64,000 bases of DNA from Bacteroidales bacterium (lineage in GTDB: Bacteria; Bacteroidota; Bacteroidia; Bacteroidales; UBA10428), in the NCBI GenBank assembly GCA_016938235.1, contig JAFGVA010000109.1:1-64000 (forward strand), in the 5' to 3' direction. Position numbers and translations under genes: made by a program. Under the pieces are notes generated by a model that ran no database searches, was not told the DNA's origin, and saw only the letters and a program-made list of their open reading frames with translations. Below are positions 16,403 through 53,581 of the stretch, piece after piece; the stretch's first letter is position 1; every line of letters begins with the position of its first letter.

Positions 16403-16425
16403 TTTAATTCTGACTTTCTGCCCTT

Positions 16426-16543
16426 TTGGCGGAATTAAGCATGAAACTAGCTGAAGAACAAGTTCCCGACTTCGCTCGAACTGACCGTCACATCAAGCGG
16501 AGTTGAGATGAGAATCAACGAGTTACAAAAAATCTTTGCCGAC
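16426..16543. repeat. dispersed intergenic repeat, copy 2 (inverted relative to copy 1)
   Basis: Read on the minus strand this segment matches 2599-2715 along its whole length, including AACTCGTTGAT, GGTCAGTTCGAGCG and the TTCAGCTAGTT / TTCAGTTAGTT region. The left terminal repeat TTGGCGGA (16426-16433) is intact; the right end is degraded to TTTGCCGAC. It sits between a terminator and the promoter of the hydrogenase maturation operon. The remaining bases up to 16673 hold the promoter described separately. Confidence 0.75.
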
Positions 16544-16564
16544 ACCTTAACTTTCTGTATTTAA

Positions 16565-16603
16565 TTGCGTTTAAATTAAAATCAAGTGTTATTTTTGTAA
16601 CAA
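16565..16603 (+). promoter_or_regulatory. promoter with overlapping Rex-like operator for the TM1266-hydG-hydE operon
   Basis: TTG at 16565-16567, a 22-nt spacer, then a perfect -7 box TATTTTTG at 16590-16597. The palindrome GTGTTATTTTTGTAACAA at 16586-16603 covers the -7 box and differs from TTGTTAT-N4-ATAACAA at two positions. A repressor bound here would block RNA polymerase directly. The operon start codon is 70 bp downstream. Confidence 0.65.
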
Positions 16604-16673
16604 TTATTCTGAGCGGAAGATTACATCAACCGTAAAGAAGCATAAATATTCTGATCCTTAAGATTTTATACTG

Positions 16674-16931
16674 ATGGAAAAGAGAATTGGAGCCGCCATT
16701 ATTTTAATTGAAAACAAGGAAAACATCGATACAATGAATCACATTTTATCGATGAATTCAGGCATTATCCTCGCCCGGCAGGGCATTCCCCTCAGAGATA
16801 AAAGAATTAGTGTTATTAACCTTATTGTTGAAGGCACAAATGATCAGATTAATGCTTTAACCGGTAGAATCGGCCGCTTAGATGGTGTACAAGTAAAATC
16901 GGTGTTCACACAATTTAAGGACTTAAAGTAA
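16674..16931 (+). CDS. TM1266-type iron-only hydrogenase system regulator
   Basis: An 85-residue ACT-like/NikR-C-like small protein of the TM1266 family, which is found almost exclusively next to HydE/HydG/HydF genes and is thought to be a regulator. It begins MEKRIGAAIILIENKENI and ends LDGVQVKSVFTQFKDLK. There is no DNA-binding domain, so it may act through a partner. It is the first gene of the maturation operon, 2 bp before hydG. Confidence 0.88.
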   Translation: MEKRIGAAIILIENKENIDTMNHILSMNSGIILARQGIPLRDKRISVINLIVEGTNDQINALTGRIGRLDGVQVKSVFTQFKDLK

Positions 16932-16933
16932 AT

Positions 16934-18361: not shown

Positions 18362-18373
18362 TATACTATAGTA

Positions 18374-19453: not shown

Positions 19454-19457
19454 TAAA

Positions 19458-22400: not shown

Positions 22401-22799
22401 ACCTGCTGTATTGGTCAGTTTAACCGAATCGCCATCAACAACAACAAAACTTATATTTTTAAACTTCCCTATCTCTGGATAATATATGCTCAATCCGTTG
22501 CCAAAAGTTCCAAACCACAATCTTTTTAATGCATCTTCACAAACATATTTCACGTGATTATGCGCAAGTGATGTTGAATCGTTGGGATTGTTGTAGAATG
22601 TTTTAAAATCATAGCCATCAAAACGGTTTAGACCATTAAAAGTACCAAACCATAAAAATCCTTTTGAATCTTGAAATATGCAAGCAATATTCCCCTCAGA
22701 TAGCCCATCTTCAGGTAAAATGTATTTAAATTTATTTTCAATCGAAAATAAACTTATATGTAAAAGCAAAAAAAATAGCAGTATCGTAGCCTTCTTCAT
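19458..22799 (-). CDS. sensor protein: two-component-regulator propeller, Y_Y_Y, TM, GAF, coiled coil; no kinase
   Basis: I set the start at 22799 (MKKATILLFFLLLHISLF, a signal peptide); an upstream Met at 22853 would add 18 residues. The 1113-residue protein has 13-14 propeller repeats of the type GxxWIGTxGGLNxxN (residues about 25-690), a Y_Y_Y domain (about 735-795), one membrane segment (WFIILISALILFIAYRYI, about 805-822), a coiled coil, a GAF domain (about 880-1035) and a long charged C-terminal coiled coil ending AEIKKLKK. No histidine kinase, AraC, receiver or phosphatase domain follows, so signal output must be through a partner. It is downstream of a DUF2148 gene on the same strand. 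Confidence 0.88.
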   Translation of the reverse strand: MKKATILLFFLLLHISLFSIENKFKYILPEDGLSEGNIACIFQDSKGFLWFGTFNGLNRFDGYDFKTFYNNPNDSTSLAHNHVKYVCEDALKRLWFGTFGNGLSIYYPEIGKFKNISFVVVDGDSVKLTNTAGIVNGPDNTIWTLDETAGLFVFDSDLNLIKAYTPKNGAKSGFPNMSYFALSSDKDKNIWVGAGNGTLLEYDRKMESFSKFIFDSRKTANDDAIKTMYIDSKGIVWIGTTSQGAYSFDPKTNTFENYRQGQGEITITGNTVMAFAEDWLGNLLIGIDGGGLNVFNSIHGTMEHIAYDIKNTQSLNTNAIYSLFLDRSETLWIGTYSGGLNYQGRFNDKFTTYKPDPFDPNSLSYKNVTSILEDSDGDIWIGTDGGGINLMNKSDGSFEHFKADLSNPNWLHTNVIIHMMQDIEGDIYVGSYNGGLTIFNKEDRIFKQYLPDVNDSTSIAGMHPWFIFQDSYGEIWVGLLAVGLDKFDKKTETFTHYISNIEDSTTLYGPNIKVIYEDKNRVMWVGTEGGGLHSFNRKADNFTRFLAGQGDGISSISNNDIRDIFEDSKNRFWVGTADGLNLMDRNSRKFEVIKKSDGLAGNIINNILEDDNGILWISTNNGISKFNPDERTFRNYDKTDGLQGNEFNYTAAIESSDGLFYFGGKEGFSVFDPATIADNPFKPEIVITDFTILNKNQEFVKTRIKGNEQMVSVPYAKNIVLTYKDKSIGIRFAALDYSNPLKNAYEYMLEGFDEEWNTVSAIIRSVSYSNLKGGTYTFRVRGSNSDDVWNEEGASVDLIVKPPFWKRTWFIILISALILFIAYRYISQRQDKVKREKEMLESRINEGLKEVEIQKNQVQKANTELEEKIENERQQAWFNQGMNQISDVISHNKQNLNKLAQEVIINLVAHLEVEQGAMYLVNEDSENEACLEVMGCFAPDESRIIGNRIETEVGNVGAAFSTNKTIKLDNLPKDYSYFSSGLGEDYLRHAVLIPISLDESVIGVFELLSFRAIDDFKISFVKKAGETLTSILTALNATSKAQKLLDEQKLLAEESEAQEEELRQNLEELQATQEEASRNSEEMIRIAKQSEEKEKQYLEKIKKLEAEIKKLKK

Positions 22800-22894
22800 T
22801 TTTGGAATCTTTATTAGACTATTAAATATAGAGATTCCTGCCAACAAGTACAAGGCTATTTATCTTAAGTTGAACTATTTTTCAGAATTAATTT

Positions 22895-23428
22895 TTATTT
22901 ACGATCGAAGAAAATATTTTTCGGACCAGAGCTAAGTGGTATTCCAAAAACTATCCTCACCTCTCCGCCCAACAATTTGAGTTCTTTTGCGGCCATACCT
23001 ACTGTATACATTATTCTGTTATCTAGCCTCGAATCCATTGCTTTGCTTACTGCAGAACCAATTGCAATTCCTAAATCAATAGTATTAAAGACACATGGTT
23101 TATCCGGGTATTTACTCTTTTCAGAACAGCCGCTATATCCACATAAACCACAATATGCAAGTCCGATAGTATCTACTTTTGTTCCTATAAGAATTAAAGC
23201 ATCTGCTTCAAGAATATTTTCGGCATCGCGTTTAAATGCCGGACTTGTATTGGGTCGCTCTGCTATTTCAATCATTCTATCCGCAATCACTCTTACTTCA
23301 TTTTCATCTGCAATTAAAATTTCAAGATTATCAACTCCCTTTGCTTTGGGGGCAGTTCTTGCAGCTATCATAATTTCATTCGCTATATTTCTTACAGTAT
23401 TTTTTCGAATTTGTTGTTCTGTTTGCAT
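22895..23428 (-). CDS. DUF2148 ferredoxin-domain protein
   Basis: A 177-residue protein with the DUF2148 Cys motif YCGLCGYSGCSEK...PC (about residues 107-128), likely binding an Fe-S cluster, and flanking helices. The family often occurs near redox enzymes in anaerobes; its function is unknown. It is divergent from the large hydrogenase operon across 274 bp that contain two identical Rex-type palindromes, so it may share that control. The propeller-GAF gene follows after 95 bp. Confidence 0.85.
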   Translation of the reverse strand: MQTEQQIRKNTVRNIANEIMIAARTAPKAKGVDNLEILIADENEVRVIADRMIEIAERPNTSPAFKRDAENILEADALILIGTKVDTIGLAYCGLCGYSGCSEKSKYPDKPCVFNTIDLGIAIGSAVSKAMDSRLDNRIMYTVGMAAKELKLLGGEVRIVFGIPLSSGPKNIFFDRK

Positions 23429-23578
23429 AATCTGTTTACTTCTTTCTTACAAGTCATATTTTCACTTAACTGTTCAAAATTCTGTAATTTTTACCATTAT
23501 TTTAAAGCTCTGAGTCTTAAAAAGATTTCTAAAAAAAATTTATATCAATTCTAAATAGACCTGCAAACCGCGACAGTA

Positions 23579-23596
23579 TTGTTATTCAAATAACAT
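23579..23596. promoter_or_regulatory. Rex-type operator, site 1 of the hydrogenase operon
   Basis: TTGTTATTCAAATAACAT is nearly palindromic (TGTTATT / AATAACA arms) and fits TTGTTAT-N4-ATAACAA with a mismatch only at the outer 3' base. The first 17 bases are repeated exactly at 23638-23654. It lies 124 bp before the first gene of the operon and on the other side faces the DUF2148 gene. Confidence 0.8.
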
Positions 23597-23636
23597 AAAA
23601 TATTAAAAGCTTTACCAGTTAAGGGATTCAGGTATT

Positions 23637-23673
23637 TTTGTTATTCAAATAACAGTAATATAGCGTATCTTTG
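23637..23673 (+). promoter_or_regulatory. promoter of the hydrogenase operon with Rex-type operator site 2
   Basis: TTGTTATTCAAATAACAG (23638-23655) is the second identical palindrome, centred 59 bp from site 1. Its first bases form the putative -33 TTTG (23637-23640). A perfect -7 box TATCTTTG follows at 23666-23673; the 25-nt spacing is slightly long. The first start codon is at 23703. Two operators allow cooperative or looped repression. Confidence 0.75.
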
Positions 23674-23702
23674 TCAAAGCAAAAAAGGGAATAAAGTAAT
23701 AA

Positions 23703-24047
23703 ATGAATATTCAGGAAATTATAAATCTGGTTGATGGTGAGTCAATTTGTCTCTCCGGGGACTCTGATTTTGAAGTGAAGAGAGCATTTGCATCTGATTT
23801 AATGAGCGATGTGCTTACGCTGAATACCGAAGGCTTATTGCTTATTACCGGCTTGGCAAATATGCAGACAATAAGAACCGCCGAAATGGCTGAGATTAAA
23901 AACATTCTCTTTGTCAGAAATAAAAAGCCTGGTAAAGAAATGATTGAATTAGCGCGCGAAGAAGGTATGAATTTATTTTTATGCAAGAAATCCATGTTCT
24001 CAACATGTGGCATCTTACATCAGGCTGGCTTAAATCCGGTTTATTAA
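23703..24047 (+). CDS. DRTGG-domain protein (copy 1)
   Basis: A 114-residue protein resembling the DRTGG domain, a fold associated with phosphotransacetylase and CBS-linked regulators and thought to bind a small ligand. It is related to 25840-26178: both share the order ...SDLMSDV/SDLLSDVM..., LLITGL/WLTIQV, ILFVRNKKPGKEM/ILLVKGLKPGKET and a C-terminal 'AG' helix. It starts the operon that contains hydB-A-C. The role is unknown; a ligand-sensing function is inferred. Confidence 0.8.
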   Translation: MNIQEIINLVDGESICLSGDSDFEVKRAFASDLMSDVLTLNTEGLLLITGLANMQTIRTAEMAEIKNILFVRNKKPGKEMIELAREEGMNLFLCKKSMFSTCGILHQAGLNPVY

Positions 24048-24049
24048 AA

Positions 24050-24463
24050 ATGGAATTTGAGTACCCGATAGAAGGAGGCGATTTTACCAGGGCAGGAATG
24101 GCTTCCAGCCAGGTTAAGAAAGTTCTGAAACAATTAAACATTGCTCCAGCAATAATTAAGCGCATTGCCGTAGCAATGTACGAAGCAGAAGTTAATGTGG
24201 TAGCTCATGCATTTAAAGGGACTATGCTGGTGAATATAATGCCAGACAAGGTTTTTATAAAATTTATAGACGAAGGACCTGGCATACATGATATTGATTT
24301 AGCCATGCAGGAAGGATTCTCAACTGCTACAGAGTCCGTGCGGCAAATGGGATTTGGTGCGGGTATGGGACTGCCAAACATTAAAAAGAATGTTGATGAG
24401 CTGCAGATTTCAAGTGTGGTTAATAAAGGGACAACAGTTGAACTAACAACTTATATTAGCTAA
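24050..24463 (+). CDS. RsbW-like anti-sigma/serine kinase ATPase
   Basis: A 137-residue GHKL ATPase of the RsbW/SpoIIAB type. I chose the ATG at 24050 (MEFEYPIEGGDF), 2 bp after the previous stop; an upstream frame to 23981 would overlap that gene. The N-box is YEAEVNVVAHAF, the G1 box DEGPGI and the G2 box MGFGAGMGLPNIK. Proteins of this type phosphorylate STAS-domain antagonists in partner switching, with PP2C/SpoIIE enzymes as the opposing phosphatases. No STAS protein is in the window, but a SpoIIE phosphatase is at 49.5 kb. Confidence 0.88.
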   Translation: MEFEYPIEGGDFTRAGMASSQVKKVLKQLNIAPAIIKRIAVAMYEAEVNVVAHAFKGTMLVNIMPDKVFIKFIDEGPGIHDIDLAMQEGFSTATESVRQMGFGAGMGLPNIKKNVDELQISSVVNKGTTVELTTYIS

Positions 24464-25810
24464 ATGACTGAAAAGGTTTTTCATCACGCCTTAAAAATTC
24501 TGGAGGATGTTTGCTATGGTTGCACACATTGTATAAGAGTATGCCCTACAGATGCATTACGTGTACGATATGGAAAAGCCTATTTATTACCCGAACGTTG
24601 TATCGATTGCGGTAAGTGCATGAAAGCCTGCCCGGTAAATGCAATAATCATCGATCAGGATGACTTTAACGATATTTTTAAATACAAAATCAGAATTGCG
24701 CTTGTTTCATCCATATTAATTGGTCAGTTTCCACGTCACTATTCTTCCAGAAAAATATACAGCGGCATACTGGAACAGGGGTTTACTCATGTTTATGAAG
24801 CCGAACACGGAGCCGGAATTCTGGCTGAGGAAATAAATCAATTCATAGAAAACAATAAATCTGTAAGACCTGTAATTTCATCCTTCTGTCCAGCAATTGT
24901 AAGACTTATTCAGGTCAGATTCCCCAGTCTTGTCGAAAACATAATGCTCCTAAAAGCTCCGCTTGATTTGGCTGCCCTTTCTTTCAAAAACGAACTTTTG
25001 GAAAGGGGATATTCCGAAGATGAAATCGGAATCTTTTATGTAACACCCTGTGCCGCAAAAATTGCTGCAATTAAAAGTCCTGTAGGTGAAGAAAACTCGC
25101 CTATAAACGGAGTAATAAATATGGATCTTATATACAACAAAGTATATAGGGATCTTAAGAAAGAAACCCGGTCAACATGCATTGTTCCTGAAAAAGAGCA
25201 GCTTAAAGCAGAAGAAATGGGATGGAGTTTAACCGGTGGAGAAGCCAGAAATATTAATGGAAGGTGCTTATCGATCGACGGAATTAACAATGCAATTGAT
25301 TTTCTTGAGGGTATTGAAAACGGAACCATTACCAATTTCGATTTTATTGAAGTGAGAGCTTGTGACCAGAGTTGTGCCGGAGGAATTCTAACCTCATCGA
25401 ACCGCTTTCTTACTACCGAAAGGCTTGAGGAAAGAATTATCAAATACGAAAATGATAAAATAGAAGGCAAAATTTTTAACAATAAAACAATTGATAATCA
25501 TATCGATTTCGTAAAAGGAAAAATAAGCATAGACAAAATTGAACCCCGCTCTATCTTAAAGCTTGATGATGACATGGAGTCGGCAATGAAAAAGATGGGT
25601 AGAATACAGCGCATATTATCATTTTTACCCGGAATTGACTGTGGTGCATGCGGAACTCCATCATGTAAGACACTTGCCGAGGATATTGTTCAGGGCAGAG
25701 CCAAAACCTCTGACTGTATATTCATTCAAACATCGCTGAATGTAGCGGCAGACAAAGAAATCAGAGCAGAAAAAATTTGGGGAAAAGACCGCTTCAGAAA
25801 ACTTACCTAG
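24464..25810 (+). CDS. sensory-type [FeFe]-hydrogenase homologue (two ferredoxin clusters, H-domain, 4Fe-4S)
   Basis: A 448-residue protein with two N-terminal [4Fe-4S] motifs (C17-C20-C23-C27 and C46-C49-C52-C56), an H-cluster-type domain and a C-terminal CGACG...C cluster motif (C393, C396, C401, C418). The three H-domain loops read SSFCPA (C142), VTPCAAK (C196) and VRACDQSCAGG (C300, C304). The four cubane-ligand Cys of [FeFe] hydrogenases are therefore kept, but the proton-shuttle Cys of TSCCP is Phe and both flanking Met are lost (MPC to TPC, MAC to RAC). This resembles group C/D putative H2-sensing proteins more than catalytic HydA. It lies directly (0 bp) after the RsbW-like gene, as expected for a sensor controlling it. 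Confidence 0.85.
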   Translation: MTEKVFHHALKILEDVCYGCTHCIRVCPTDALRVRYGKAYLLPERCIDCGKCMKACPVNAIIIDQDDFNDIFKYKIRIALVSSILIGQFPRHYSSRKIYSGILEQGFTHVYEAEHGAGILAEEINQFIENNKSVRPVISSFCPAIVRLIQVRFPSLVENIMLLKAPLDLAALSFKNELLERGYSEDEIGIFYVTPCAAKIAAIKSPVGEENSPINGVINMDLIYNKVYRDLKKETRSTCIVPEKEQLKAEEMGWSLTGGEARNINGRCLSIDGINNAIDFLEGIENGTITNFDFIEVRACDQSCAGGILTSSNRFLTTERLEERIIKYENDKIEGKIFNNKTIDNHIDFVKGKISIDKIEPRSILKLDDDMESAMKKMGRIQRILSFLPGIDCGACGTPSCKTLAEDIVQGRAKTSDCIFIQTSLNVAADKEIRAEKIWGKDRFRKLT

Positions 25811-25839
25811 CGTAATTCTGAAGCCTGAAACAAAATATA

Positions 25840-26178
25840 ATGAAACTAACAGAAGTTGTAAATAAGCTGGAATTAGAGGTAATCTGTGGCGAGGACTTAC
25901 TCGAAAACACAGTTACCGGAGGCTATTGTTCCGATTTGCTAAGCGATGTTATGGGAAATGCACAAGAGGGTCAGGTATGGTTAACCATACAGGTGCATAA
26001 TAACATCATTGCAGTTGCATCATTGAAAGAGCTTTCTGCTATTTTGCTGGTTAAAGGGCTAAAACCAGGTAAGGAAACAATTGAGACTGCAATACAACAA
26101 GGAATTCCGATTCTGAGAACAAACGAAACAGCCTTTGAAATTGCCGGCAGGTTATACAACTTAATCAGGCAATCATGA
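25840..26178 (+). CDS. DRTGG-domain protein (copy 2)
   Basis: A 112-residue DRTGG-type protein paralogous to 23703-24047. Shared features are TGGYCSDLLSDVM, the central WLTIQVHNNI strand and LLVKGLKPGKETIE. It follows the sensory hydrogenase homologue by 29 bp and overlaps the PHP gene by 4 bp (ATGA). The two copies bracket the ATPase/sensor pair, suggesting a role in the same pathway. The ligand is unknown. Confidence 0.8.
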   Translation: MKLTEVVNKLELEVICGEDLLENTVTGGYCSDLLSDVMGNAQEGQVWLTIQVHNNIIAVASLKELSAILLVKGLKPGKETIETAIQQGIPILRTNETAFEIAGRLYNLIRQS

Positions 26179-26915
26179 GGTGGTTTCGTGCTGACATCCA
26201 TATCCACTCTGTGTTATCGCCCTGTGGCGATTTGGATATGAGTCCGGCACGAATCATCCATGAAGCTAAAAATAAAAAGCTCGACATAATAGGCATTACG
26301 GATCACAATTCAACAAAACATGCCGAATTAATGATGAAGCTTGGAGAAAAGGCAGGAATTAAAGTTATTCCGGGAATAGAAGTAAATACCTTGGAAGAAA
26401 TTCACTGTCTTGCGTTCTTTGAAAATATTGAGAAAACGAAAGCCTTTCAAGACTTCATCGACCAAAAGTTGGTGAAAATTGAAAATGTGCCGGATAAGTT
26501 CGGACAACAACTTTTGGTTAACGAAAAAGAAGAAATTCTTGAAGAAGAAAAATGGTGGCTTAACAGCACTATTTCTGCAACAGTTAATGAGGTTGAGGAG
26601 AAAGTCCATAAACTTGCAGGAGTATTTATTCCTGCCCATGTATTAAGGCCATCTAACGGAATCTACTCGCAAATTGGATTTATACCTCAGAATTTACTGG
26701 TTGATGCCATTGAAATATCGAGTTCCACACTGAATTCAGGGGTTTACCGCAGCAAAAAAGATTTAGAGAACTACACCATCATTACAGGTTCCGATGCTCA
26801 TTACCCACACATCGTAGGATCATCGCTTACCAAATTTTTTCTTTCTAAACCCACGCTGAATGAAATACGAATGGCCTTAAAAAACAAGGGAGGAAGAAAA
26901 ACCAGGCTGGCATGA
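26175..26915 (+). CDS. PHP-domain metal-dependent phosphoesterase-like protein
   Basis: A 246-residue protein of the PHP family (related to DNA polymerase III/X PHP domains and histidinol phosphatase). Metal ligands are visible in RADIHIHSVLSPCGD (HxH near residue 8), ITDHNST near residue 40, the EVNTLEEIHCLAF segment near residue 72 and GSDAHYPHI near residue 211. It is coupled by 4-bp ATGA overlaps to both neighbours in the hydrogenase operon. The substrate is unknown; PHP genes recur in [FeFe] hydrogenase clusters of anaerobes. Confidence 0.9.
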   Translation: MRWFRADIHIHSVLSPCGDLDMSPARIIHEAKNKKLDIIGITDHNSTKHAELMMKLGEKAGIKVIPGIEVNTLEEIHCLAFFENIEKTKAFQDFIDQKLVKIENVPDKFGQQLLVNEKEEILEEEKWWLNSTISATVNEVEEKVHKLAGVFIPAHVLRPSNGIYSQIGFIPQNLLVDAIEISSSTLNSGVYRSKKDLENYTIITGSDAHYPHIVGSSLTKFFLSKPTLNEIRMALKNKGGRKTRLA

Positions 26916-27454
26916 AAGAGATATCGCTACACATATTAGATATTGTGCAGAATTCGATTCACGCAGGTAGCTCTTCAATAGAGATAAATATCCGGGAATC
27001 AAAAATTGATGATTGTTTAAGTTTTGTTGTTTCCGATAATGGCTCAGGAATGGATAAAACTGAAATTGAAAAAATACTGGATCCCTTCTATACTTCAAAA
27101 AACAAAAAAACAGGAATGGGAATACCCTTATTAAAACAACATGCCGAAATGGCCGGTGGAAAAATTGAAATTAGTTCAGAAAAGGGCCAAGGCACAACAA
27201 TTTTAGCCCTGTTTGAATACAACAACATTGACAGACAACCCCTGGGCGATATAAAATCAACCATAACCGGTCTGATAAGAACGAACCCTGAGATTGATTT
27301 TATTTTTACCCTTCAGATCGAAAATAATCGTTTTGAGTTAGATACACAGGAAATAAAAAAAGTGCTGGAAGGTATAAAAATCAATACCCCGGAGGTGATT
27401 CGTTTTCTTGATAACAAGATAGATGAATTTCAAAATAAAAACAGAATAGAATGA
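26912..27454 (+). CDS. GHKL (histidine-kinase-type) ATPase without H-box
   Basis: A 180-residue protein consisting of an ATP-binding HATPase domain (residues 1-105: N-box ILDIVQNSIHAGS, G1 DNGSGM, G2 TGMGIPLLK) and a C-terminal domain of about 75 residues with no known motif. There is no dimerisation/phospho-acceptor His helix, so it is not a full histidine kinase. It overlaps the PHP gene by 4 bp and is the last of the six accessory genes before the hydrogenase subunits. The target is unknown. Confidence 0.87.
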   Translation: MKEISLHILDIVQNSIHAGSSSIEINIRESKIDDCLSFVVSDNGSGMDKTEIEKILDPFYTSKNKKTGMGIPLLKQHAEMAGGKIEISSEKGQGTTILALFEYNNIDRQPLGDIKSTITGLIRTNPEIDFIFTLQIENNRFELDTQEIKKVLEGIKINTPEVIRFLDNKIDEFQNKNRIE

Positions 27455-27543
27455 TTTTAAATAACTAAATATCAGTTTTTTAAACTATCGGAAATAAATA
27501 ATAAAAGTAAGAAAAAAGCTAAATTTATATAAAAGCACAGAAA

Positions 27544-27948
27544 ATGGGAAAAGTTAAAACTTTAGATGATTTAAGAAAGCTCCGCGATGAGCTCAAAAAT
27601 CAGACAAGCCTTCGCGATAAGAGCGAGCACTCCGAATCATTGGTTCAGGTAAAAGTTGCTATGGCAACTTGCTGCATTGCTTCCGGCTCAAGAGAAACCA
27701 TGAACTACCTGGCCGACGAACTCGATAAAAGAAATATCGAGGCAGTGGTTACTCAAACCGGATGTATGGGATATTGTTATGCCGAACCTACAGTAGAGAT
27801 TACCCTGCCAGGCAAGGAGCCTATTGTTTTCGGTTATGTTGACGAAAAGAAAGCCGACGAAATTATTGAGAAGTATATAAAAGGTGGGGAGTTGGTAGAA
27901 GGAATTATACCCATGAATTACCAGAATATAGACATCGATAAAAAATAA
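27544..27948 (+). CDS. small thioredoxin-like [2Fe-2S] protein (NuoE C-terminal-like)
   Basis: A 134-residue protein with the thioredoxin-like 2Fe-2S pattern: MATCCIASGSRE near residue 38 and QTGCMGYCYAEP near residue 79. Residues 1-30 are a charged helix. It starts 89 bp after the GHKL ATPase, where TAAATTTA at 27520-27527 is a 7/8 match to a -7 box, so an internal promoter is possible. It precedes hydB by 16 bp and is probably a fourth, small electron-carrier subunit of the hydrogenase, as in tetrameric enzymes of some Thermoanaerobacter-type cluster arrangements. Confidence 0.88.
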   Translation: MGKVKTLDDLRKLRDELKNQTSLRDKSEHSESLVQVKVAMATCCIASGSRETMNYLADELDKRNIEAVVTQTGCMGYCYAEPTVEITLPGKEPIVFGYVDEKKADEIIEKYIKGGELVEGIIPMNYQNIDIDKK

Positions 27949-27964
27949 CAGGAGGAATAATAAA

Positions 27965-29758
27965 ATGTCAGACTATAAAATACACTTGCTTGTTTGTGGT
28001 GGTACAGGATGCAAAGCTTCTGAAAGCGCACAGGTAGTAAGCAATCTTAAAAAAGAAATTGAAAGTCAGGGCCTAAGCGATTTCGCACAGGTGGTAACAA
28101 CCGGATGTTTTGGTTTCTGCGAAAAAGGGCCAATTGTTAAAATTATACCCGATAATACCTTTTACACGCAGGTTAAGCCTGCAGATGCAAAAGAAATTGT
28201 TGATGAACACATTGTTAAGGGAAGAAAAGTTGAACATTTACTATATGTTGATCCCGACAAAAATGAGAAAGTTTCTGATTCGAAAGGAATGAACTTTTAC
28301 AAAAAGCAAATTCGAATTGCTCTTAGAAACTGTGGTATAATTGACCCGGAAAACATTGGAGAATACATAGCACGGGATGGCTATGAAGCTCTTGGCAAAG
28401 TCCTTACCAGCATGAGCCCCGAGGAAGCAATTGATGTTGTTAAAAAATCAGGCATTCGGGGAAGAGGTGGTGCCGGTTTTCCTACCGGCTTGAAATGGGA
28501 ACTTACCCGTCAAACCCAAAGTGATGTAAAATATGTTGTTTGTAATGCTGATGAAGGCGACCCGGGAGCTTTTATGGATCGTTCAATCCTTGAAGGTGAC
28601 CCTCATTCTGTGCTTGAGGCAATGGCTATCAATGGCTATTGTACAGGTGCCGGGCATGGTCTTATTTACATCAGGGCAGAATATCCGCTTGCCATTGAAA
28701 GATTAAAAATTGCCATTAAACAAGCCCGCGAATATGGATTACTTGGCAATGATATTCTGGGTACCGGCTTTAACTTCGATGTTGAACTGAGATATGGCGC
28801 CGGAGCTTTTGTTTGCGGCGAAGAAACAGCGCTTATCCACTCCATGGAAGGCAGCCGTGGCGAACCAACTTTAAAACCACCATTCCCATCAGTTGAGGGT
28901 TATTTAAAAAAGCCTACCAATGTAAATAATGTTGAAACCTATGCCAATATCCCTGTTATATTTAACCGCGGTGCAGCTTGGTTTGCAAGCATCGGAACTG
29001 AAAAATCAAAAGGAACCAAAGTTTTCGCTTTAGCAGGTAAAGTAAATAATGTTGGACTCATTGAAGTTCCAATGGGAATTACCTTACGTGAAGTCATATT
29101 CGAAATCGGCGGTGGTATTAAAGGCGGGAAAAAATTCAAAGCGGTACAGACAGGTGGTCCTTCAGGAGGTTGTTTAACTGAAAAACATCTTGACACCCCT
29201 ATCGACTATGATAACCTTATTGCTGTTGGCTCTATGATGGGTTCGGGAGGTATGGTTGTTATGGATGAAGACGATTGTATGGTTGACGTAGCAAAATACT
29301 TCCTCGATTTTACGGTTGAAGAGTCTTGCGGAAAATGTTCTCCCTGCAGAATTGGAAACAAACGATTACACGAATTACTCGATAAACTCACCAAAGGAAA
29401 AGGTGAAAAACAAGACATTGACAGGTTAATAAATCTAAGTAATGTTATAAAAGACACCTCGCTGTGTGGGTTAGGCCAATCGTCTCCAAACCCTGTATTA
29501 GCTACAATTAGCAATTTTCGCGATGAGTACGAAGCTCATGTTTTTGACAAGAAATGTCCGGCAGGAGTTTGTAAAGATTTAATGACTTACTCTATTGTTG
29601 ATGAAAACTGTGTTGGTTGTACTGCATGCGCACGTGCCTGCCCCGTAGGAGCAATCACCGGCGAAAGAAAAGAAGTTCATTTTATTGATGCTGCATTATG
29701 CATAAAATGCGGCGCCTGTATGGAAAAATGTAAGTTTAATGCAGTAATCGTTAAATAA
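27965..29758 (+). CDS. hydB: [FeFe] hydrogenase NADH-binding subunit HydB (NuoF-like)
   Basis: A 597-residue flavoprotein subunit. Domains: N-terminal thioredoxin-like 2Fe-2S (residues 1-85, VCGGTGCKAS and TTGCFGFCEKG), NuoF core with FMN loop GIRGRGGAGFPTGLKWE near residue 163, [4Fe-4S] motif ESCGKCSPCRIG near 455 with CGLGQ near 500, and a C-terminal ferredoxin domain with two [4Fe-4S] motifs (CVGCTACARACP and CIKCGACMEKC). The C-terminal ferredoxin domain is typical of HydB in electron-bifurcating HydABC enzymes, which couple NADH and reduced ferredoxin to H2. A SD-like AGGAGG lies at 27951-27956, 8 bp before the start. Confidence 0.95.
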   Translation: MSDYKIHLLVCGGTGCKASESAQVVSNLKKEIESQGLSDFAQVVTTGCFGFCEKGPIVKIIPDNTFYTQVKPADAKEIVDEHIVKGRKVEHLLYVDPDKNEKVSDSKGMNFYKKQIRIALRNCGIIDPENIGEYIARDGYEALGKVLTSMSPEEAIDVVKKSGIRGRGGAGFPTGLKWELTRQTQSDVKYVVCNADEGDPGAFMDRSILEGDPHSVLEAMAINGYCTGAGHGLIYIRAEYPLAIERLKIAIKQAREYGLLGNDILGTGFNFDVELRYGAGAFVCGEETALIHSMEGSRGEPTLKPPFPSVEGYLKKPTNVNNVETYANIPVIFNRGAAWFASIGTEKSKGTKVFALAGKVNNVGLIEVPMGITLREVIFEIGGGIKGGKKFKAVQTGGPSGGCLTEKHLDTPIDYDNLIAVGSMMGSGGMVVMDEDDCMVDVAKYFLDFTVEESCGKCSPCRIGNKRLHELLDKLTKGKGEKQDIDRLINLSNVIKDTSLCGLGQSSPNPVLATISNFRDEYEAHVFDKKCPAGVCKDLMTYSIVDENCVGCTACARACPVGAITGERKEVHFIDAALCIKCGACMEKCKFNAVIVK

Positions 29759-29769
29759 TTCTGAAAAAC

Positions 29770-31548
29770 ATGGAAAAAGTAAAACTTAATATAGATAACA
29801 AACAAGTTGAGGTAGCCAAAGGAACCACAATTTTCAAAGCTGCCAAACAAATGGGAATTGATATTCCTGTACTCTGCTATATGCACCTTGAAGACCTGGG
29901 CATAGAGCACAAACCTGGCGGATGTCGTATTTGTGTTGTTGAAGTAGAAGGAAGAAGGAACCTTGCTCCCTCCTGCTCTACCGAAGTAGCCGAAGGAATG
30001 GTTGTTAAAACACATTCGGTGCGTGTTTTAAACGCGCGTAAAACCGTTATGGAATTAATCCTTTCCGATCACCCTAAAGATTGTCTTTCTTGTGCAAAAT
30101 CAGGAAAATGCGACCTGCAAAATATGGCAGTTAAACTCGGTATTCGCGATATTCCAAACCAGGATATCGCTGAAATGTCGACCTATCGTATGGACTTCTC
30201 TCCATCGCTGATACGTGACATGGATAAATGCATTATGTGCCGCAGGTGCGAAACCATGTGTAACGACTTTCAGACTGTTGGTGCACTTTCAGCCATTAAC
30301 CGCGGGTTCAACTCGGTGGTTGCCCCGGCATTCGAAATGGATATTGAAGATTCTACATGTACTTATTGTGGCCAATGTGTGGCAGTTTGTCCAACAGGTG
30401 CACTAACTGAAGTAGATCACACCAATCAGTTGATCGAAGACCTTGCAAATCCCGAAAAAACCGTGATCGTACAGACAGCTCCTGCAGTACGCGCCGCTTT
30501 AGGTGAAGAATTTGACATGCCTGCCGGAACTAGTGTTACGGGCCAAATGGTAACAGCCCTTCGCGAACTGGGTTTCGATTATGTTTTCGATACCGACTTT
30601 GCGGCTGACCTTACCATCATGGAAGAAGGTACAGAGTTGCTTGACAGACTTACCAAGCATTTAAATGGTGACAAATCTGTTAAACTTCCGATATTAACAT
30701 CATGTTGCCCCAGTTGGGTTAACTTTTTTGAGCAACAGTTTATTGATATGCTCGACATTCCCTCTACTGCCCGTTCTCCGCAACAAATGTTTGGTGCCAT
30801 TGCAAAAACTTACTTTGCCGATAAAATCAACGTAAAAAGAGAAAACCTGGTTGTTGTTTCTATTATGCCTTGTTTGGCAAAAAAATACGAATGCCAGCGC
30901 GATGAGTTTAAGGTTGACGGTAATCCTGATGTTGATTATTCAATTACAACCAGAGAACTTGCTTCGCTGATTAAAAGAGCCAACATTAACCTGGCCATTC
31001 TTGAAAAACAAGATTTCGATGCACCTCTGGGTGAGTCAACCGGAGCCGGAGTAATTTTTGGTGTTACCGGAGGTGTTATTGAAGCTGCTACGCGTACAGC
31101 CTACGAGTTGCATACCGGCAAAGAACTTAAAAAGGTTGACTTTGAAGAATTGCGAGGACTTGGTGGAATTAGAAAAGCCACTATAGATTTTGATGGTTTA
31201 CCTATAAAAATAGGTATTGCCCACGGGCTTGGAAATGCACGTAAATTACTTGAAGATATTCGTGCAGGGAAAAGCGAATTCCATGCAATTGAAATAATGG
31301 CTTGCCCCGGTGGATGTATCGGTGGTGGTGGTCAGCCATTACACCATGGCGATTCATCAGTTATTCAAAAACGTTTTGAAGCTATTTACGCCGAAGACAA
31401 AGGCAAAAAACTCCGTAAATCGCATGAAAATCCATATATTACAAAATTATACGAAGAGTTTTTGGGTAAACCAATGAGCGAGAAAGCTCACCATTTACTC
31501 CACACTCACTACGTAGATAAGAGTAAAAAAATTATTTACATGAAGTAA
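29770..31548 (+). CDS. hydA: [FeFe] hydrogenase catalytic subunit HydA (group A3, bifurcating type)
   Basis: A 592-residue catalytic subunit. Clusters in order: plant-type [2Fe-2S] (C36, C52, C55, C69), His-Cys3 [4Fe-4S] (H101, C105, C108, C114), and two [4Fe-4S] (C154-C164, C197-C207). The H-domain follows with intact loops TSCCPSW (C312, C313), MPCLAKKYE (C368) and MACPGGCIGGGGQP (C512, C516), then the small-subunit-like C-terminal segment (about 540-592). All catalytic residues are present, in contrast to the two sensor-like paralogues. With HydB, HydC and the small 2Fe-2S protein it forms the multimeric NAD- and ferredoxin-linked enzyme. Confidence 0.97.
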   Translation: MEKVKLNIDNKQVEVAKGTTIFKAAKQMGIDIPVLCYMHLEDLGIEHKPGGCRICVVEVEGRRNLAPSCSTEVAEGMVVKTHSVRVLNARKTVMELILSDHPKDCLSCAKSGKCDLQNMAVKLGIRDIPNQDIAEMSTYRMDFSPSLIRDMDKCIMCRRCETMCNDFQTVGALSAINRGFNSVVAPAFEMDIEDSTCTYCGQCVAVCPTGALTEVDHTNQLIEDLANPEKTVIVQTAPAVRAALGEEFDMPAGTSVTGQMVTALRELGFDYVFDTDFAADLTIMEEGTELLDRLTKHLNGDKSVKLPILTSCCPSWVNFFEQQFIDMLDIPSTARSPQQMFGAIAKTYFADKINVKRENLVVVSIMPCLAKKYECQRDEFKVDGNPDVDYSITTRELASLIKRANINLAILEKQDFDAPLGESTGAGVIFGVTGGVIEAATRTAYELHTGKELKKVDFEELRGLGGIRKATIDFDGLPIKIGIAHGLGNARKLLEDIRAGKSEFHAIEIMACPGGCIGGGGQPLHHGDSSVIQKRFEAIYAEDKGKKLRKSHENPYITKLYEEFLGKPMSEKAHHLLHTHYVDKSKKIIYMK

Positions 31549-31585
31549 AACCTGTTTTGTAATATTAATTAGAAAATTTTCGGAC

Positions 31586-32071
31586 ATGTCTAGAATAAAA
31601 TTTGAATTAAGAAAAGACCAGATTGATAAAATCAATGAAATATGCCAGTCGTTTAACAACGAAGCCGGCGAGCTGATAAATGTTCTTCATAAAGTACAGG
31701 GAACCTTTGGATACTTACCTGCCGAAGTTCAGGAAGTAGTTGCAAAAGGACTGAACATACCTGTTGCTAAGGTCTATGGTGTTGTAACATTCTACAGCTA
31801 CTTCACTATGACTCCAAAGGGTAAACACCCCATTTCTATTTGTACAGGAACAGCTTGCTATGTAAGGGGTGCAGAGAAAGTTCTTGAAGAGTTTAAAAAA
31901 GAACTCAAAGCCGAAGTTGGAGAAACAACTCCTGATGGTAAGTTCTCGATAGCCTGCCTGCGCTGTGTAGGTGCATGTGGATTAGCACCTGTAGTAATGG
32001 TTGGAGATAAAACCTACGGAAGAGTTGCACCAGAAATGGTGAAAGATATTTTAGCTGAATACGCTGACTGA
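31586..32071 (+). CDS. hydC: [FeFe] hydrogenase subunit HydC (NuoE-like)
   Basis: A 161-residue NuoE-family subunit with a helical N-terminal part (residues 1-80) and a thioredoxin-like domain with all four [2Fe-2S] ligands: CTGTACYVRG (near 92-97) and CLRCVGACG (near 133-137). It is the last gene of the operon, 37 bp after hydA, and is followed by a strong terminator. The order small-2Fe-2S, B, A, C differs from the C-B-A order of Thermotoga. Confidence 0.94.
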   Translation: MSRIKFELRKDQIDKINEICQSFNNEAGELINVLHKVQGTFGYLPAEVQEVVAKGLNIPVAKVYGVVTFYSYFTMTPKGKHPISICTGTACYVRGAEKVLEEFKKELKAEVGETTPDGKFSIACLRCVGACGLAPVVMVGDKTYGRVAPEMVKDILAEYAD

Positions 32072-49507: not shown

Positions 49508-50692
49508 TCAGATGAAGCCCAGCTTAACTTTCTTTAAAAACTTCTCCTCAAGAATAAAGCTTATACGCTTTACAACTGTTCTTCTAATTTCAAGGTCAAT
49601 TTGCATGTTTGGATCCTGGTGAGCAATGTTAATTCTGGTTCCTACGATAAACCTTATCTCATCACTATCAAGTATAAGTTTCACTATTTCGTCGGCTGGG
49701 CCCCGCCCTAAATCAACATTATTTTTATAGGTAGTAAGTATTTTTTCGACTTTGCGCAGGGTTAGAATACCCTCGGTAAACAAATCTATTCCTTCAAGAA
49801 AAGATAAGGGAGGCAAATCGGGATCTGCAAAATCTTGTCCGTCCTGAACTTTAAGTTCCAGTTCCCGGGCCAGAATATCGCCGGTAGTAGCTCCCATTAC
49901 AATTTTCTTTCCCTCAAATTCTTTCACAAGGTTTGCAAATTCCCTGTCCTTTACCTTTTCAAACGGCGGACCGGTTGCAATAAGTAATTCGCGAGGTTCT
50001 CTGAGATATATTACTCCGCTTGTAATATCGTCTTTTGCTGCAAAACCATCGTTCCGGAAAGCGGCATTAACCAACCTGCTGGCTAATTGACGGGCAGAAA
50101 TCTGGGGTGTATTTTTCACCAAATCCAAAGCAAACCGGCCGGCATTATCCATCCCCCAACCAAAAGGAAACCTTGGCGTTCCCAAACCAGACTGGGCAAT
50201 ACCATCGGTGGCAAACACAATCCTGTCTCCTTTTTCACCCTTAAAATTGCACAATTTAAGTTTTTTACCACAGTTCCTTTCGCTCTCAAGCACAACATTC
50301 TTTCGCTTAAGGTCTATCACCTGTCGGTCTCTTATTAAAATACTTTCGGGATTATCGTATTCCAGAATAGTAATATTTCCTTCGTAATCAATATCAATAA
50401 TTGTAAATGTAGCGTAGCTCATTTTGCGTTCACTGCACTCGGGCAGTGTATTCATTATAATCTCGGCTGTTTTCGATGGCTCACGATGCTCTTTTGTGAA
50501 ATTTAATGCCATGGTAGCCGTTAAAGTAGCAAGCACACTAGCTTTTACGCCATGGCCCATTCCATCAGATAAAACAATTACAATTCGGCCTTCTTCACGA
50601 ACCTTACCGGACAGGAAAACATCACCACAGATACGCTCACCTTCGTGATTCCTCTGATGATAATCAACTTCTATAAAATATTTATCAGCCAT
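49508..50692 (-). CDS. SpoIIE/PP2C phosphatase with a conserved-looking C-terminal domain
   Basis: A 394-residue cytoplasmic protein. Residues 1-195 are a SpoIIE-type PP2C domain with metal motifs GERICGDVF (near 17), LSDGMGHGVKAS (near 41), ATDGIAQSG (near 163) and KDDITSGVIYL (near 220). Residues 228-394 form a separate domain (LLIATGPPFEKVKD, VMGATTGDILAREL, GIDLFTEGILTLRKVE, IRFIVGTRINIAHQDP) that I do not recognise as a named family. It is 17 bp after the PAS/hydrogenase-like sensor gene and is probably controlled by it. It is a natural antagonist for the RsbW-like ATPase at 24.05 kb. Confidence 0.88.
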   Translation of the reverse strand: MADKYFIEVDYHQRNHEGERICGDVFLSGKVREEGRIVIVLSDGMGHGVKASVLATLTATMALNFTKEHREPSKTAEIIMNTLPECSERKMSYATFTIIDIDYEGNITILEYDNPESILIRDRQVIDLKRKNVVLESERNCGKKLKLCNFKGEKGDRIVFATDGIAQSGLGTPRFPFGWGMDNAGRFALDLVKNTPQISARQLASRLVNAAFRNDGFAAKDDITSGVIYLREPRELLIATGPPFEKVKDREFANLVKEFEGKKIVMGATTGDILARELELKVQDGQDFADPDLPPLSFLEGIDLFTEGILTLRKVEKILTTYKNNVDLGRGPADEIVKLILDSDEIRFIVGTRINIAHQDPNMQIDLEIRRTVVKRISFILEEKFLKKVKLGFI

Positions 50693-50709: not shown

Positions 50710-52566
50710 TTATTTTTTCGAATCGTTATCGTAAATCTTAATTACTGAATTCAACATTTTTTCAATATCTGAGGCCCCTTCGCCGAGTAAAAATCCTATT
50801 TTCTGAACCATTTCAAGGTTTTTATCAATCACCTCAGAGACTCTTCGGGTAACCTCTGCTTTCTGTACCTCGGGAGCACGCATATCCCGAACAATACCAC
50901 CAGCAATATGGTTTTCACGAATTGGAAATATAGAAAGGTTTAATAATATGTTTTCATGTCTGACATCCCGGCCGTCAATAGATTCAGAGTTTTCAATTAC
51001 ATAGGAAAACAAATTACAAATATCGTCGGCAAAGAATTTATTTAAATCAGCACCAATCAATCCGGGAATTACTTCATTGATTTCTTCTGCTTCTTCGCCT
51101 AATATTGTACAAAAAGTATTGTTTGCCTTAACAATTTTCATTTTATAATCGACAAAAACAATTCCAGCTCTTAATTTCTCAAGTATAGCATCGGTAAGTT
51201 CTGAAGCCTGCAATGCTGTATCATGTTCACTCAGAACTTTCTCCTCAGTTTCATGAAGTGCCTGCCTGGTGGTGGCCAGTTTTTCATTCAGTTCCATGAG
51301 GGTTTGTGTATAGTATTTGCTATTTCGAATGGCGAAGGTAGAGCACATTTCCGGAATAACTATGCCCTTTGCCATATCAACTGCAAAATCGCGACAGGTA
51401 GTATAACCACACTGACCACAATCGGTATGTCTGTCAACTCTTCCGCCTAAAACTTTAAGAGCTTCTTCAATTTTCTCCGGTTCCGGTTCATCCAGCCTTT
51501 GATCATCGGGTTGGAATTCGCGGGAATAATCCAGGCTCTGATACTTCAAAAGATTGTCATACCATTCGGCCCTGAAAAAATTACTCAACCTTTTATTTGC
51601 ATATGTGGTTACAAGGTGCTCTTTAAAAAGCTTATTGCCCCTGCTTGTAATGCCCGGCCCGGAAAGAGAGTTTCCGTATGTTACATGAAGATTCCGATGA
51701 ATTACTTTAACATTACTCTCAAACTCATTAATCGATTCAAACATTTCTTTCTTTCCTTCAACAGAGATCACGTTTGAAGTTAAGAGGTTTTCATCGATAT
51801 CGGCGGCCTGAATAAAACCATTAATTATTGGATATAAGCTCCCTTTATAACCTATTGGATCATCAAACTCTGAAAAATCCACCAGGTTTTCGTCAATTTT
51901 CAATTCACTGAATAGCTTTCTTAATTCCGGAAAGGTTAATACCACATCTACTTTACCATCACTATTAAATTTGAGCGCTACATCTTTACTGGCAATATCT
52001 GGTCCGATGTATATAACCTTAATATTCTGACCGTATTTCATACGAACAATTTTTGCCATAGCAATCATTGGAGGGACAAACGGTGCCAGATTCCTGATAA
52101 GCTTGGGATGATATTTTTCAACGAAATTTACCACTACCGGGTCGCAGGAAGATATATAATACCTGCCTTTAAAATCGTTAAACAGACTCTGGTATTTGCT
52201 GGCAAGCACATCAACAGCAAAGGAAACCTCGTTTACATAATTAACACCAAGCGATTTAATCATCTGCACAAATTTCCGGTAATCTGTAATATCGTCGAAT
52301 TCGGCAGAAATACTCGGACTTACGATAACAACTTTTTTAAGTTTCGACTTAAGAATGTGTTTAACATCGTCGATAGAACTGCGGGAATGTATTGCCCCGG
52401 GAACACAGGCATTTACACAGTCGCCACACCCGATGCAACGATTAGATTGCACCTCGGGATATGCCTTCATCTTGCTTACCTTTATGGCCTTAACCGGGCA
52501 TATACGCACACAAGTGAAACAATTTGTACAAGTCGAATAATCTATTTTTATTAAAGCGTCCATCAA
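50710..52566 (-). CDS. PAS-containing degenerate [FeFe]-hydrogenase homologue (HydS/group C-like sensor)
   Basis: A 618-residue protein with the domain order of group C putative sensory hydrogenases: two ferredoxin [4Fe-4S] motifs (C13, C16, C19, C23; C44, C47, C50, C54), an H-domain (about 75-330), a CGQCG-type [4Fe-4S] motif (C383, C386, C391, C408), a coiled coil (about 420-455) and a PAS domain (about 457-565). The H-cluster ligands are gone: L1 is SSCDP (Asp for the cubane Cys; C141 is the only Cys in the domain), L2 is GPDIASK (Asp190 for Cys), and L3 (NLHVTYGNSLSGPG) has no Cys. It therefore cannot bind a canonical H-cluster. It lies 2 bp after the 2Fe-2S gene and just before the SpoIIE phosphatase. 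Confidence 0.88.
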   Translation of the reverse strand: MMDALIKIDYSTCTNCFTCVRICPVKAIKVSKMKAYPEVQSNRCIGCGDCVNACVPGAIHSRSSIDDVKHILKSKLKKVVIVSPSISAEFDDITDYRKFVQMIKSLGVNYVNEVSFAVDVLASKYQSLFNDFKGRYYISSCDPVVVNFVEKYHPKLIRNLAPFVPPMIAMAKIVRMKYGQNIKVIYIGPDIASKDVALKFNSDGKVDVVLTFPELRKLFSELKIDENLVDFSEFDDPIGYKGSLYPIINGFIQAADIDENLLTSNVISVEGKKEMFESINEFESNVKVIHRNLHVTYGNSLSGPGITSRGNKLFKEHLVTTYANKRLSNFFRAEWYDNLLKYQSLDYSREFQPDDQRLDEPEPEKIEEALKVLGGRVDRHTDCGQCGYTTCRDFAVDMAKGIVIPEMCSTFAIRNSKYYTQTLMELNEKLATTRQALHETEEKVLSEHDTALQASELTDAILEKLRAGIVFVDYKMKIVKANNTFCTILGEEAEEINEVIPGLIGADLNKFFADDICNLFSYVIENSESIDGRDVRHENILLNLSIFPIRENHIAGGIVRDMRAPEVQKAEVTRRVSEVIDKNLEMVQKIGFLLGEGASDIEKMLNSVIKIYDNDSKK

Positions 52567-52568
52567 TC

Positions 52569-52823
52569 TTATATCAAGTCTTTAAGTTGCTCTTCAAGTA
52601 TTATCTGGATATTCTCCTTATTTACCTGCTGAAATAATCTGCCATCAATTCTGATATTAGGCCCGTTACTGCATTCTTCAAAGCAATGGTCTCCTGAAAA
52701 CTCCACCTTATCTTCAAGATTCTTTCTTTGAATGTATTTTTGAACTATTGGAACAAGCTCTCTGTTTCCTCTTGAATAACAAGAGCTCCCAAGACATATC
52801 TTAATTAACCTTTTTTTAAGCAT
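52569..52823 (-). CDS. small thioredoxin-like [2Fe-2S] ferredoxin
   Basis: An 84-residue protein with the four NuoE-type 2Fe-2S ligands: CLGSSCYSRGN (near residues 10-15) and DHCFEECSNGPN (near 46-50). It would pass electrons to the following PAS/hydrogenase-like sensor, giving the sensor a redox input. It is divergent from rex2 across a perfect Rex palindrome and is the first gene of a three-gene minus-strand operon. Confidence 0.92.
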   Translation of the reverse strand: MLKKRLIKICLGSSCYSRGNRELVPIVQKYIQRKNLEDKVEFSGDHCFEECSNGPNIRIDGRLFQQVNKENIQIILEEQLKDLI

Positions 52824-52877: not shown

Positions 52878-52895
52878 TTGTTATAAAAATAACAA
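52878..52895. promoter_or_regulatory. perfect Rex-type operator between rex2 and the sensor operon
   Basis: TTGTTATAAAAATAACAA is an exact 7-4-7 palindrome and the best match to the Rex consensus in the window. It lies 54 bp from the minus-strand operon start and 56 bp from the rex2 start, suiting both autoregulation and control of the sensor operon. Confidence 0.85.
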
Positions 52896-52951: not shown

Positions 52952-53581
52952 ATGAAAATTCTACCAGAAAAGACGATTGAGAGACTCAGTCAATACCGAA
53001 GAACATTAAATAACTTTTATGCCGATCATAATTCAAACAGAATTTTTTCGCATGAATTGGCTGCATTATTGAATATTACAGCAGTGCAGGTTAGAAGAGA
53101 TATAATGTTTATTGGTTACAGCTCATCGCAAAGAAAAGGTTATAACGTACAGGAACTCATTCAGGTTATCAGCCAGATAATTGATACGCACGAACCTATC
53201 AATGTTGCTGTTGTAGGTTATGGCAACCTGGGTAAAGCTATCACAACCTATTTTGTAGGAAACCGACCTAAACTTAACCTGGTAGCAGCTTTTGACATAG
53301 ACCCAAAGAAAATCGGACAGGAAACGCACAACATAAAATGCTATTCAATCGACAGGTTAAGAGAGATTCTGGTTGCAAAAGATATTACAATTGCTATTCT
53401 TACAGTACCAACACACGCTGCAAAAGACATGGCTAAGATACTGGTACAAACCGGTATCAAAGGAATATTAAACTATACCACTGTTAATCTTCATATTCCG
53501 CCAGAAATATATCTTGAAGAATATGATATGATAACATCCTTGGAAAAAGTTGCTTACTTTGTAAAAAACAAGAATCAATAA
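52952..53581 (+). CDS. rex: redox-sensing transcriptional repressor Rex (copy 2)
   Basis: A 209-residue Rex paralogue of the 7844-8473 gene: winged helix (LAALLNITAVQVRRDI, about 35-50), NAD(H) Rossmann loop AVVGYGNLGKAIT near residue 88, and the C-terminal domain-swap helix ending YDMITSLEKVAYFV. The DNA-contact motif VQVRRD is the same in both copies, so both may read the same palindrome; the ligand-binding halves differ more. It is divergent from the 2Fe-2S/PAS/phosphatase operon. Confidence 0.94.
   Translation: MKILPEKTIERLSQYRRTLNNFYADHNSNRIFSHELAALLNITAVQVRRDIMFIGYSSSQRKGYNVQELIQVISQIIDTHEPINVAVVGYGNLGKAITTYFVGNRPKLNLVAAFDIDPKKIGQETHNIKCYSIDRLREILVAKDITIAILTVPTHAAKDMAKILVQTGIKGILNYTTVNLHIPPEIYLEEYDMITSLEKVAYFVKNKNQ

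Follow-up and report, generated by a model that had tools for sequence, protein, structure and literature searches.

The window (the whole 64,000-nucleotide stretch of DNA analysed here) carries on its reverse strand a gene for a group C-like [FeFe]-hydrogenase homologue without an H-cluster, referred to below as HydX. The open reading frame at 50710-52566 is confirmed, with the ATG at 52563 as the better start; the gene so defined (50710..52563, reverse strand) encodes 617 amino acids. HydX lies between two genes of the same orientation: the first gene of the unit, for an 84-residue thioredoxin-like [2Fe-2S] protein (52569..52823), and the next one after HydX, for a 394-residue SpoIIE-type PP2C phosphatase (49508..50692). 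A gene for the redox-sensing repressor Rex diverges from the unit (52952..53581, forward strand), and between the two arms sits TTGTTATAAAAATAACAA, an exact Rex-type palindrome TTGTTA-N6-TAACAA (52878..52895). Both partner proteins are well kept: nine Asp residues of the phosphatase in 56-57 of 57 loci, and the four cysteines of the small [2Fe-2S] protein in all 47 loci examined. In the window's family both genes adjoin HydX in 13/13 distinct loci, in agreement with the phosphatase neighbour named in the original prediction for this gene.

The layout of HydX is that of the group C sensory hydrogenases: two ferredoxin clusters, an H-domain and a C-terminal four-Cys cluster. Pfam finds Fer4 ferredoxin domains at residues 5-57, Fe_hyd_lg_C (PF02906) at residues 77-283 (E 1.9e-31) and the FeS domain PF04060 at residues 380-407 (E 1.5e-9), the latter two in 42/42 HydX proteins scanned. 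The two [4Fe-4S] ferredoxin motifs (C12-C15-C18-C22 and C43-C46-C49-C53; 52405..52530, reverse strand) and the C-terminal cluster motif (C382-C385-C390-C407; 51343..51420, reverse strand) are intact. The nearest solved proteins by sequence are HydA subunits of bifurcating hydrogenases (7p5h, E 3.9e-19), and an AlphaFold2 model built from 42 sequences (the window's and those of named loci; mean pLDDT 81.7) superposes with its first 350 residues on [FeFe] hydrogenase crystal structures (8zqd_A: Z 38.8, rmsd 2.6, 342 residues aligned). By sequence and by predicted fold HydX thus belongs to the [FeFe]-hydrogenase fold (PF02906 superfamily), and the hydrogenase-like layout originally proposed is borne out. 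The PAS domain of that proposal fares less well. A PAS-like region is present, and the model has a long helix (408-462) followed by a strand/helix pattern (467-560), but the assignment is weak: the PAS_9 match at residues 467-561 (E 3.7e-5, 24.4 bits) falls below the Pfam cut-off of 27, and at E <= 0.001 PAS_8 is matched in 9 and PAS_9 in 5 of the 42 proteins scanned. As judged from these matches, PAS would be the weakest element of the architecture.

The loops that would hold the H-cluster are another matter. In the numbering of Clostridium pasteurianum CpI, which is used here (C299, G302 and S357 appear under these numbers in PDB titles), we take the ligands to be C300, C355, C499 and C503, and K358 to hold the 2Fe unit. 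HydX of the window has none of the four ligands. Loop 1, TSCCP in its Cys-containing form, reads SSC140-D141-P, with C300 replaced by Asp and C140 at the C299 position (C140-D141-P142; 52138..52146, reverse strand). Loop 2, MPCxxKK, has become GP-D189-IASK (residues 187-193; 51985..52005, reverse strand), with D189 for C355, S192 for the K358 equivalent and K193 kept. Loop 3, ACxxxC, has become TYGNSLSGPG (residues 295-304; 51652..51681, reverse strand), in which both cysteines are gone and which is one residue shorter than in the Cys-keeping orthologues. The loss of all four H-cluster cysteines, first read off the bare loops, therefore stands on alignment, and ligands placed elsewhere in the domain, an objection foreseen for it, were not found in the window's HydX by that alignment. 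The single Cys that was said to remain in the H-domain is C140 counted from the ATG (C141 in the earlier numbering) and lies at the C299 proton-transfer position. Its reading as a leftover ligand was considered and rejected: position 299 is not a ligand site, and Cys is found there in 7/21 members of the window's family.

This loss is the property of a clade. An orthologue is found in 21/23 genomes of the window's family, and in 12/12 of those with completeness of 90% or more and contamination of no more than 5%. At the four ligand positions these 21 proteins (the window's and 20 others) keep no Cys at all; the C300 position is Asp in 21/21, the C355 position is E in 9, D in 8, N in 3 and Q in 1, and loop 3 is without ligand Cys in every one, with a Cys at the edge of the loop in five. 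No H-domain Cys is conserved among the 21. The accessory clusters, on the other hand, keep 252/252 of their cysteines (eight ferredoxin and four C-terminal, each in 21/21), as the claim that these motifs are intact had held for the window's protein; on sequence comparison the contrast between the two sets is more than chance. The 21 ligand-less proteins, chosen in scripts by their loop residues and identical to the 21 returned by the family search, form one clade with a support of 100 in the quick tree; 12 representatives do so with 100/100 in the careful tree. A conserved clade of similarly degenerate orthologues, the absence of which was to count against the original prediction, thus exists. 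The same loops recur in named loci of uncultured Bacteroidales/Bacteroidetes assemblies (Zod_Metabat, UBA10428, SZUA-471 and Ww25). That sequencing error or misalignment produced the altered loops is scarcely credible: no supporting evidence was found for it, 21 genomes agree on the loss, and so do 8 of 80 named loci in a second collection that overlaps the others, the remaining 72 keeping C300, C355 and at least the second loop-3 Cys. As to the distribution outside the order, in a search at E <= 1e-100 of 395 genomes drawn evenly from the phylum (mostly near-complete, 371 having completeness of 90% or more and contamination of no more than 5%, with thin coverage expected for uncultured anaerobes), the one genome matched was the window's own. 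One member of the window's family, G206 (8% contamination), has an additional, Cys-keeping HydX on a 4767-base contig beside HydC/HydB (G206:C53; L115, L164), and this second copy is possibly foreign.

Loss of ligands at this scale might mark a gene decaying neutrally on its way to becoming a pseudogene. The graded loss described below (all four ligands in most Cys-keeping proteins, one ligand at most in another family) would fit such a course, which is nonetheless highly improbable in the face of the invariant accessory cysteines, the conserved gene unit, the absence of in-frame stops in 21/21 orthologues of the window's family, and low dN/dS wherever it can be measured. The whole-protein values (Nei-Gojobori; rough, as several dS are near or above 1) are 0.110, 0.013 and 0.070 for pairs from f8, the second ligand-poor family, and 0.087 and 0.031 for pairs from the window's family, as compared with 0.027 and 0.033 in two Cys-keeping pairs; for two further pairs, including the window's protein with its nearest relative, saturation of the whole protein leaves no usable figure. 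For the H-domain, the same five ligand-poor pairs yield 0.162, 0.019, 0.095 and 0.102, with one saturated. The second f8 pair (0.013) still has C300. These codon comparisons show purifying selection on what are, by their predicted products, ligand-poor HydX genes. The ratio of H-domain to PAS-region divergence comes to 1.06 for the window's family, 0.995 for the Cys-keeping orthologues and 1.50 for f8; by these ratios the window's family holds its H-domain, and that of f8 is looser, its faster change fitting relaxed constraint.

The wider HydX set was assembled from 198 genomes of the order as 60 proteins of at least 400 residues, the window's included (fragments below this length, among them those of G058 and G116, were excluded); adding two families brought it to 101, and dropping one fragment without loops 1 and 2 (L146) to 100, of which 21 are the window's family, 23 are f8 and 56 are Cys-keeping. 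HydX is one clade in the quick tree (99, SH-aLRT), apart from group A and from p660, a 660-residue paralogue in the same order that is encoded next to HydA and with which HydX is joined at 98. The window's protein belongs to this clade and shares its unit with the [2Fe-2S] protein and SpoIIE. All four ligands are present in 42/56 Cys-keeping proteins; the other 14 have N, D, H or R in place of the first loop-3 Cys, and C355 is missing as well from one of them. In f8 the loop-2 ligand position is L in 20, V in 2 and I in 1, loop 3 is Cys-free in 23/23, and the C300 position is Asp in 16/23 and Cys in 7/23. The K358-equivalent Lys occurs in 4/101 HydX, three of the four in the window's family (3/21), as compared with 34/34 p660, 10/11 of a 570-residue group (Arg in the other) and 4/4 chosen group A proteins. 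Sensory hydrogenases reportedly conserve the H-cluster cysteines together with the residues that hold the 2Fe unit (PMC10055695). Since the equivalent of K358 is so rare, HydX as a whole looks, from its sequences, unfit for an ordinary 2Fe site. Because this Lys is seldom present even where the cysteines are kept, H2 chemistry may have been lost before the ligands were. The description of the window's protein as a former H2 sensor perhaps places the change at the wrong point. We know of no purified HydX. Variation is also seen at neighbouring sites: in the first ferredoxin motif, 10/56 Cys-keeping HydX (e.g., L221 and L223) have another residue, often Ser in the named loci, for the second Cys, which is kept in 44/44 ligand-poor HydX. 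p660 keeps C300 and C355 in 34/34; its loop 3, in most cases LCCEGC, has one residue fewer than that of group A and an extra adjacent Cys, and its position 299 is Asp in 32/34 (e.g., L056, 9680-11677).

How often the ligands were lost is less simple than it first appeared. Free trees separate the window's family from f8, and the two are joined in 0/200 bootstrap trees of the careful tree. AU tests fail to reject a single clade of the two (p 0.76, the joined tree having the better likelihood, and p 0.353), and both families have a loop 3 that is one residue shorter. A first reading of two independent ligand losses was accordingly withdrawn for loops 2 and 3. Position 300 requires at least three Cys/Asp changes on both free trees. 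The recurrence of Asp at this position, its fixation as D141 in the window's family, and the new conservation of G297 (21/21) and N298 (20/21) at the ligand sites (other newly fixed positions include S82, E315 and R331) could be taken to mean that D141, D/E/N/Q189 and N298 stand in for the cysteines as ligands of a cluster or a mononuclear metal. We consider such a site improbable: position 189 varies within the window's family and is aliphatic in f8, the window's family offers no conserved H-domain Cys, and in the AlphaFold2 model helix 142-151 begins right after D141, which suggests that Asp here is an ordinary helix N-cap, enough to explain its recurrence.

The surroundings of the unit differ between families. 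In the Cys-keeping loci the [2Fe-2S]-HydX-SpoIIE unit usually faces a second arm, which in the reference locus L056 (Pfam assignments; other loci were labelled by BLAST to L056) comprises HydC (a thioredoxin-like [2Fe-2S] subunit), a Nuo51-like HydB, HydA, p660, a response regulator, a receiver-kinase hybrid and Rex. Among Cys-keeping loci whose upstream sequence is at least 1500 bases long, the labelled gene encountered first on the divergent side is HydC in 83/102 and Rex in 2, none being found in 17; SpoIIE is adjacent to HydX in 94/109 and the [2Fe-2S] gene in 83/111 (105/111 and 89/113 by a looser overlap rule; the collections overlap), and the 660-residue gene is within reach in 19/19 loci with long flanks. 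In f8 SpoIIE is adjacent in 7/8 and the [2Fe-2S] gene in 6/8 (8 and 8 by the looser rule), and the first divergent gene is HydC in 6/8, Rex in one and none in one. In the window's family 11/11 distinct loci have Rex as their first labelled gene on that side; no HydC, HydB or HydA was found opposite the unit, and a search of the 23 genomes at E <= 1e-20 found no p660 protein. The simplest history of this arrangement is that the whole stretch separating the unit from Rex was deleted. Loss of the arm is not needed for loss of the ligands, since f8 mostly keeps HydC opposite. The frequent pairing with hydC in Cys-keeping loci is the argument for HydX as an electron-transfer subunit, a wire or docking part of a hydrogenase or of an NADH-linked complex. 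That role has a low probability: in the window's family it is the hydrogenase genes that are missing opposite the unit and the phosphatase, a signalling part, that stays.

The palindrome between the arms agrees with the Rex motif given for Thermoanaerobacter ethanolicus (PMC5886521). Across the whole window, the Rex pattern with up to two mismatches occurs 10 times against 12.3 expected; it is not enriched, and the palindrome takes its meaning solely from its intergenic place and from the comparison across loci. In Cys-keeping loci the intergenic palindrome is exact in 35/92 and within one mismatch in 72/92, as compared with 0.84 expected from single-base shuffles (a weaker control than dinucleotide shuffles). 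It is exact in 2/7 f8 loci, within one mismatch in 3/7, and exact in 3/11 distinct loci of the window's family, the window included. The divergent region is thus probably under Rex in much of the order, to judge from this motif; in the window's family the exact site is gone from most loci. The absent hydCBA-kinase arm, the divergent rex gene and the palindrome all go beyond what the original prediction had to draw on. Elsewhere in the window, at 9853-9870, TTGTGAACTAATTAACAA is the sole mismatch-free match to TTGTNAANNNNTTNACAA and may, by its letters, be a further Rex site.

The genome of the window still has hydrogenase genes: five other PF02906 genes, HydF, HydG and a [NiFe] large subunit. 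Four of the five other PF02906 genes keep all loop cysteines and the fifth (L001) has Ser at C300; within this genome full ligand loss is therefore specific to HydX. The L001 protein is a HydA with the loop 1 sequence TSCSPGW, in which the C299 position is Cys (L001 1306-3075, G000:C17), and the same loop is seen at L070 2-1357 and L071 296-2080. A hydrogenase island occupies positions 13001-32071 of the window, with the [NiFe] large subunit (13001-14455, PF00374), HydG (16976-18358), a radical SAM protein resembling HydE (18374-19453; PF04055 match only), a 448-residue PF02906 protein with Cys loops (24464-25810) and a HydABC-like operon (27544-32071, of which HydA alone was scanned). HydF is over the cut-off in 15/23 genomes of the window's family and in 114/198 of the order. 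Among 12 genomes picked by eye that have HydX and no HydF over the cut-off, 8 encode a PF02906 protein with E <= 1e-93, which marks a full hydrogenase, and HydG is also absent from 9 of the same 12, so that assembly gaps would account for the pattern as well. A distant HydX match at G071:C109:14966-16801 was flagged for one in-frame TGA.

Two described systems come close to HydX. TmHydS, of group C (PMC10055695), resembles it in its N-terminal ferredoxin clusters, H-domain, C-terminal four-Cys cluster and PAS domain (the last weakly matched in HydX); unlike the sensory enzymes as characterized there, the window's protein has 0/4 H-cluster cysteines and is without the K358 equivalent. In the hfsABCD operon of Thermoanaerobacterium, the PAS-hydrogenase HfsB is encoded in one operon with a serine phosphatase-like protein, HfsC (PMC11837493), and a Rex site is predicted upstream (PMC5886521). 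The likeness is one of description: HfsB is described as an [FeFe] hydrogenase, whereas HydX of the window has no ligands, and the HydX unit contains a [2Fe-2S] thioredoxin-like protein. p660 shares the ferredoxin, H-domain and PF04060 parts with HydX; unlike HydX, the one p660 protein that was scanned (L056) has no PAS match and ends in a histidine kinase (HisKA and HATPase_c). Among eukaryotic proteins, Nar1/NARF (IOP1) have a hydrogenase-like domain without hydrogen chemistry, keep the cubane cysteines and work in Fe-S assembly. For HydX, the phosphatase neighbourhood argues against such an assembly role. A full-text literature search returned no title or abstract opening that describes a sensory-hydrogenase family without H-cluster ligands, which is a weak negative because most subscription journals lie outside the scope of such a search.

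With the hydrogenase fold (by sequence and model), the loss of four ligands, the twelve cluster cysteines, purifying selection and fixed partners established, HydX is probably a former group C-like sensor that has become an H-cluster-less Fe-S signalling scaffold controlling a phosphatase, with the redox state of ferredoxin/NADH rather than H2 as its likely input. In such a device the two N-terminal clusters would read the electrons or the redox state of ferredoxin or of the small [2Fe-2S] partner; the H-domain, as a rigid relay, and the C-terminal cluster would pass the change on to the long helix and the PAS-like region, and these would switch the SpoIIE phosphatase, the output. The likely input would be the ferredoxin/NADH redox state of the cell, beside Rex, an NADH sensor. 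Redox sensing is what we infer for HydX, and several observations count against it: the weak PAS call, the faster H-domain of f8, the exact Rex palindrome in so few loci of the window's family, the Cys-keeping copy carried by G206 within the ligand-less family and, from a biochemical side, the behaviour of TamHydS, a group D protein. A signalling role had been proposed for the C-terminal cluster, and the group D test spoke against its redox state as the signal: the cluster of TamHydS stayed oxidised under H2, and its authors doubt redox signalling (PMC13104023). The purely redox-sensing function of the original prediction has, then, an alternative: the three clusters may have a structural role, with the PAS-like region sensing a small ligand or a partner protein and the H-domain merely holding the parts together. 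TamHydS lends itself to this reading as well, one of its N-terminal clusters being critical for structural integrity and its C-terminal cluster indifferent to H2 (PMC13104023), as does the modelled mixed strand/helix region with long helices after the C-terminal cluster. We think it unlikely; twelve invariant cluster cysteines and a [2Fe-2S] neighbour that keeps all four of its own suggest electron flow.

The preferred reading of HydX as an electron-carrier sensor lends itself to extension, more tentatively, to the entire family, which may represent a series in which an H2 sensor was dismantled in order while its phosphatase chain was kept and its input became electron-carrier redox. The 2Fe site would have gone first, then one cubane ligand in some lineages, then, in two families, loops 2 and 3 and finally C300; in the window's family the unit would have come to share an intergenic region with rex after deletion of the hydrogenase arm. 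p660, the Cys-complete hydrogenase-kinase sister, would be the branch that still senses H2.

The practical consequence is a warning for annotation: a match to Fe_hyd_lg_C in a sensor-like protein is no proof of hydrogen sensing, and the loop cysteines should be checked. In the ligand-less family, oxidation of H2 at an H-cluster is unlikely to be what is signalled. A family that has shed the ligands and kept its other parts separates, by nature, the two halves of the sensory hydrogenases.
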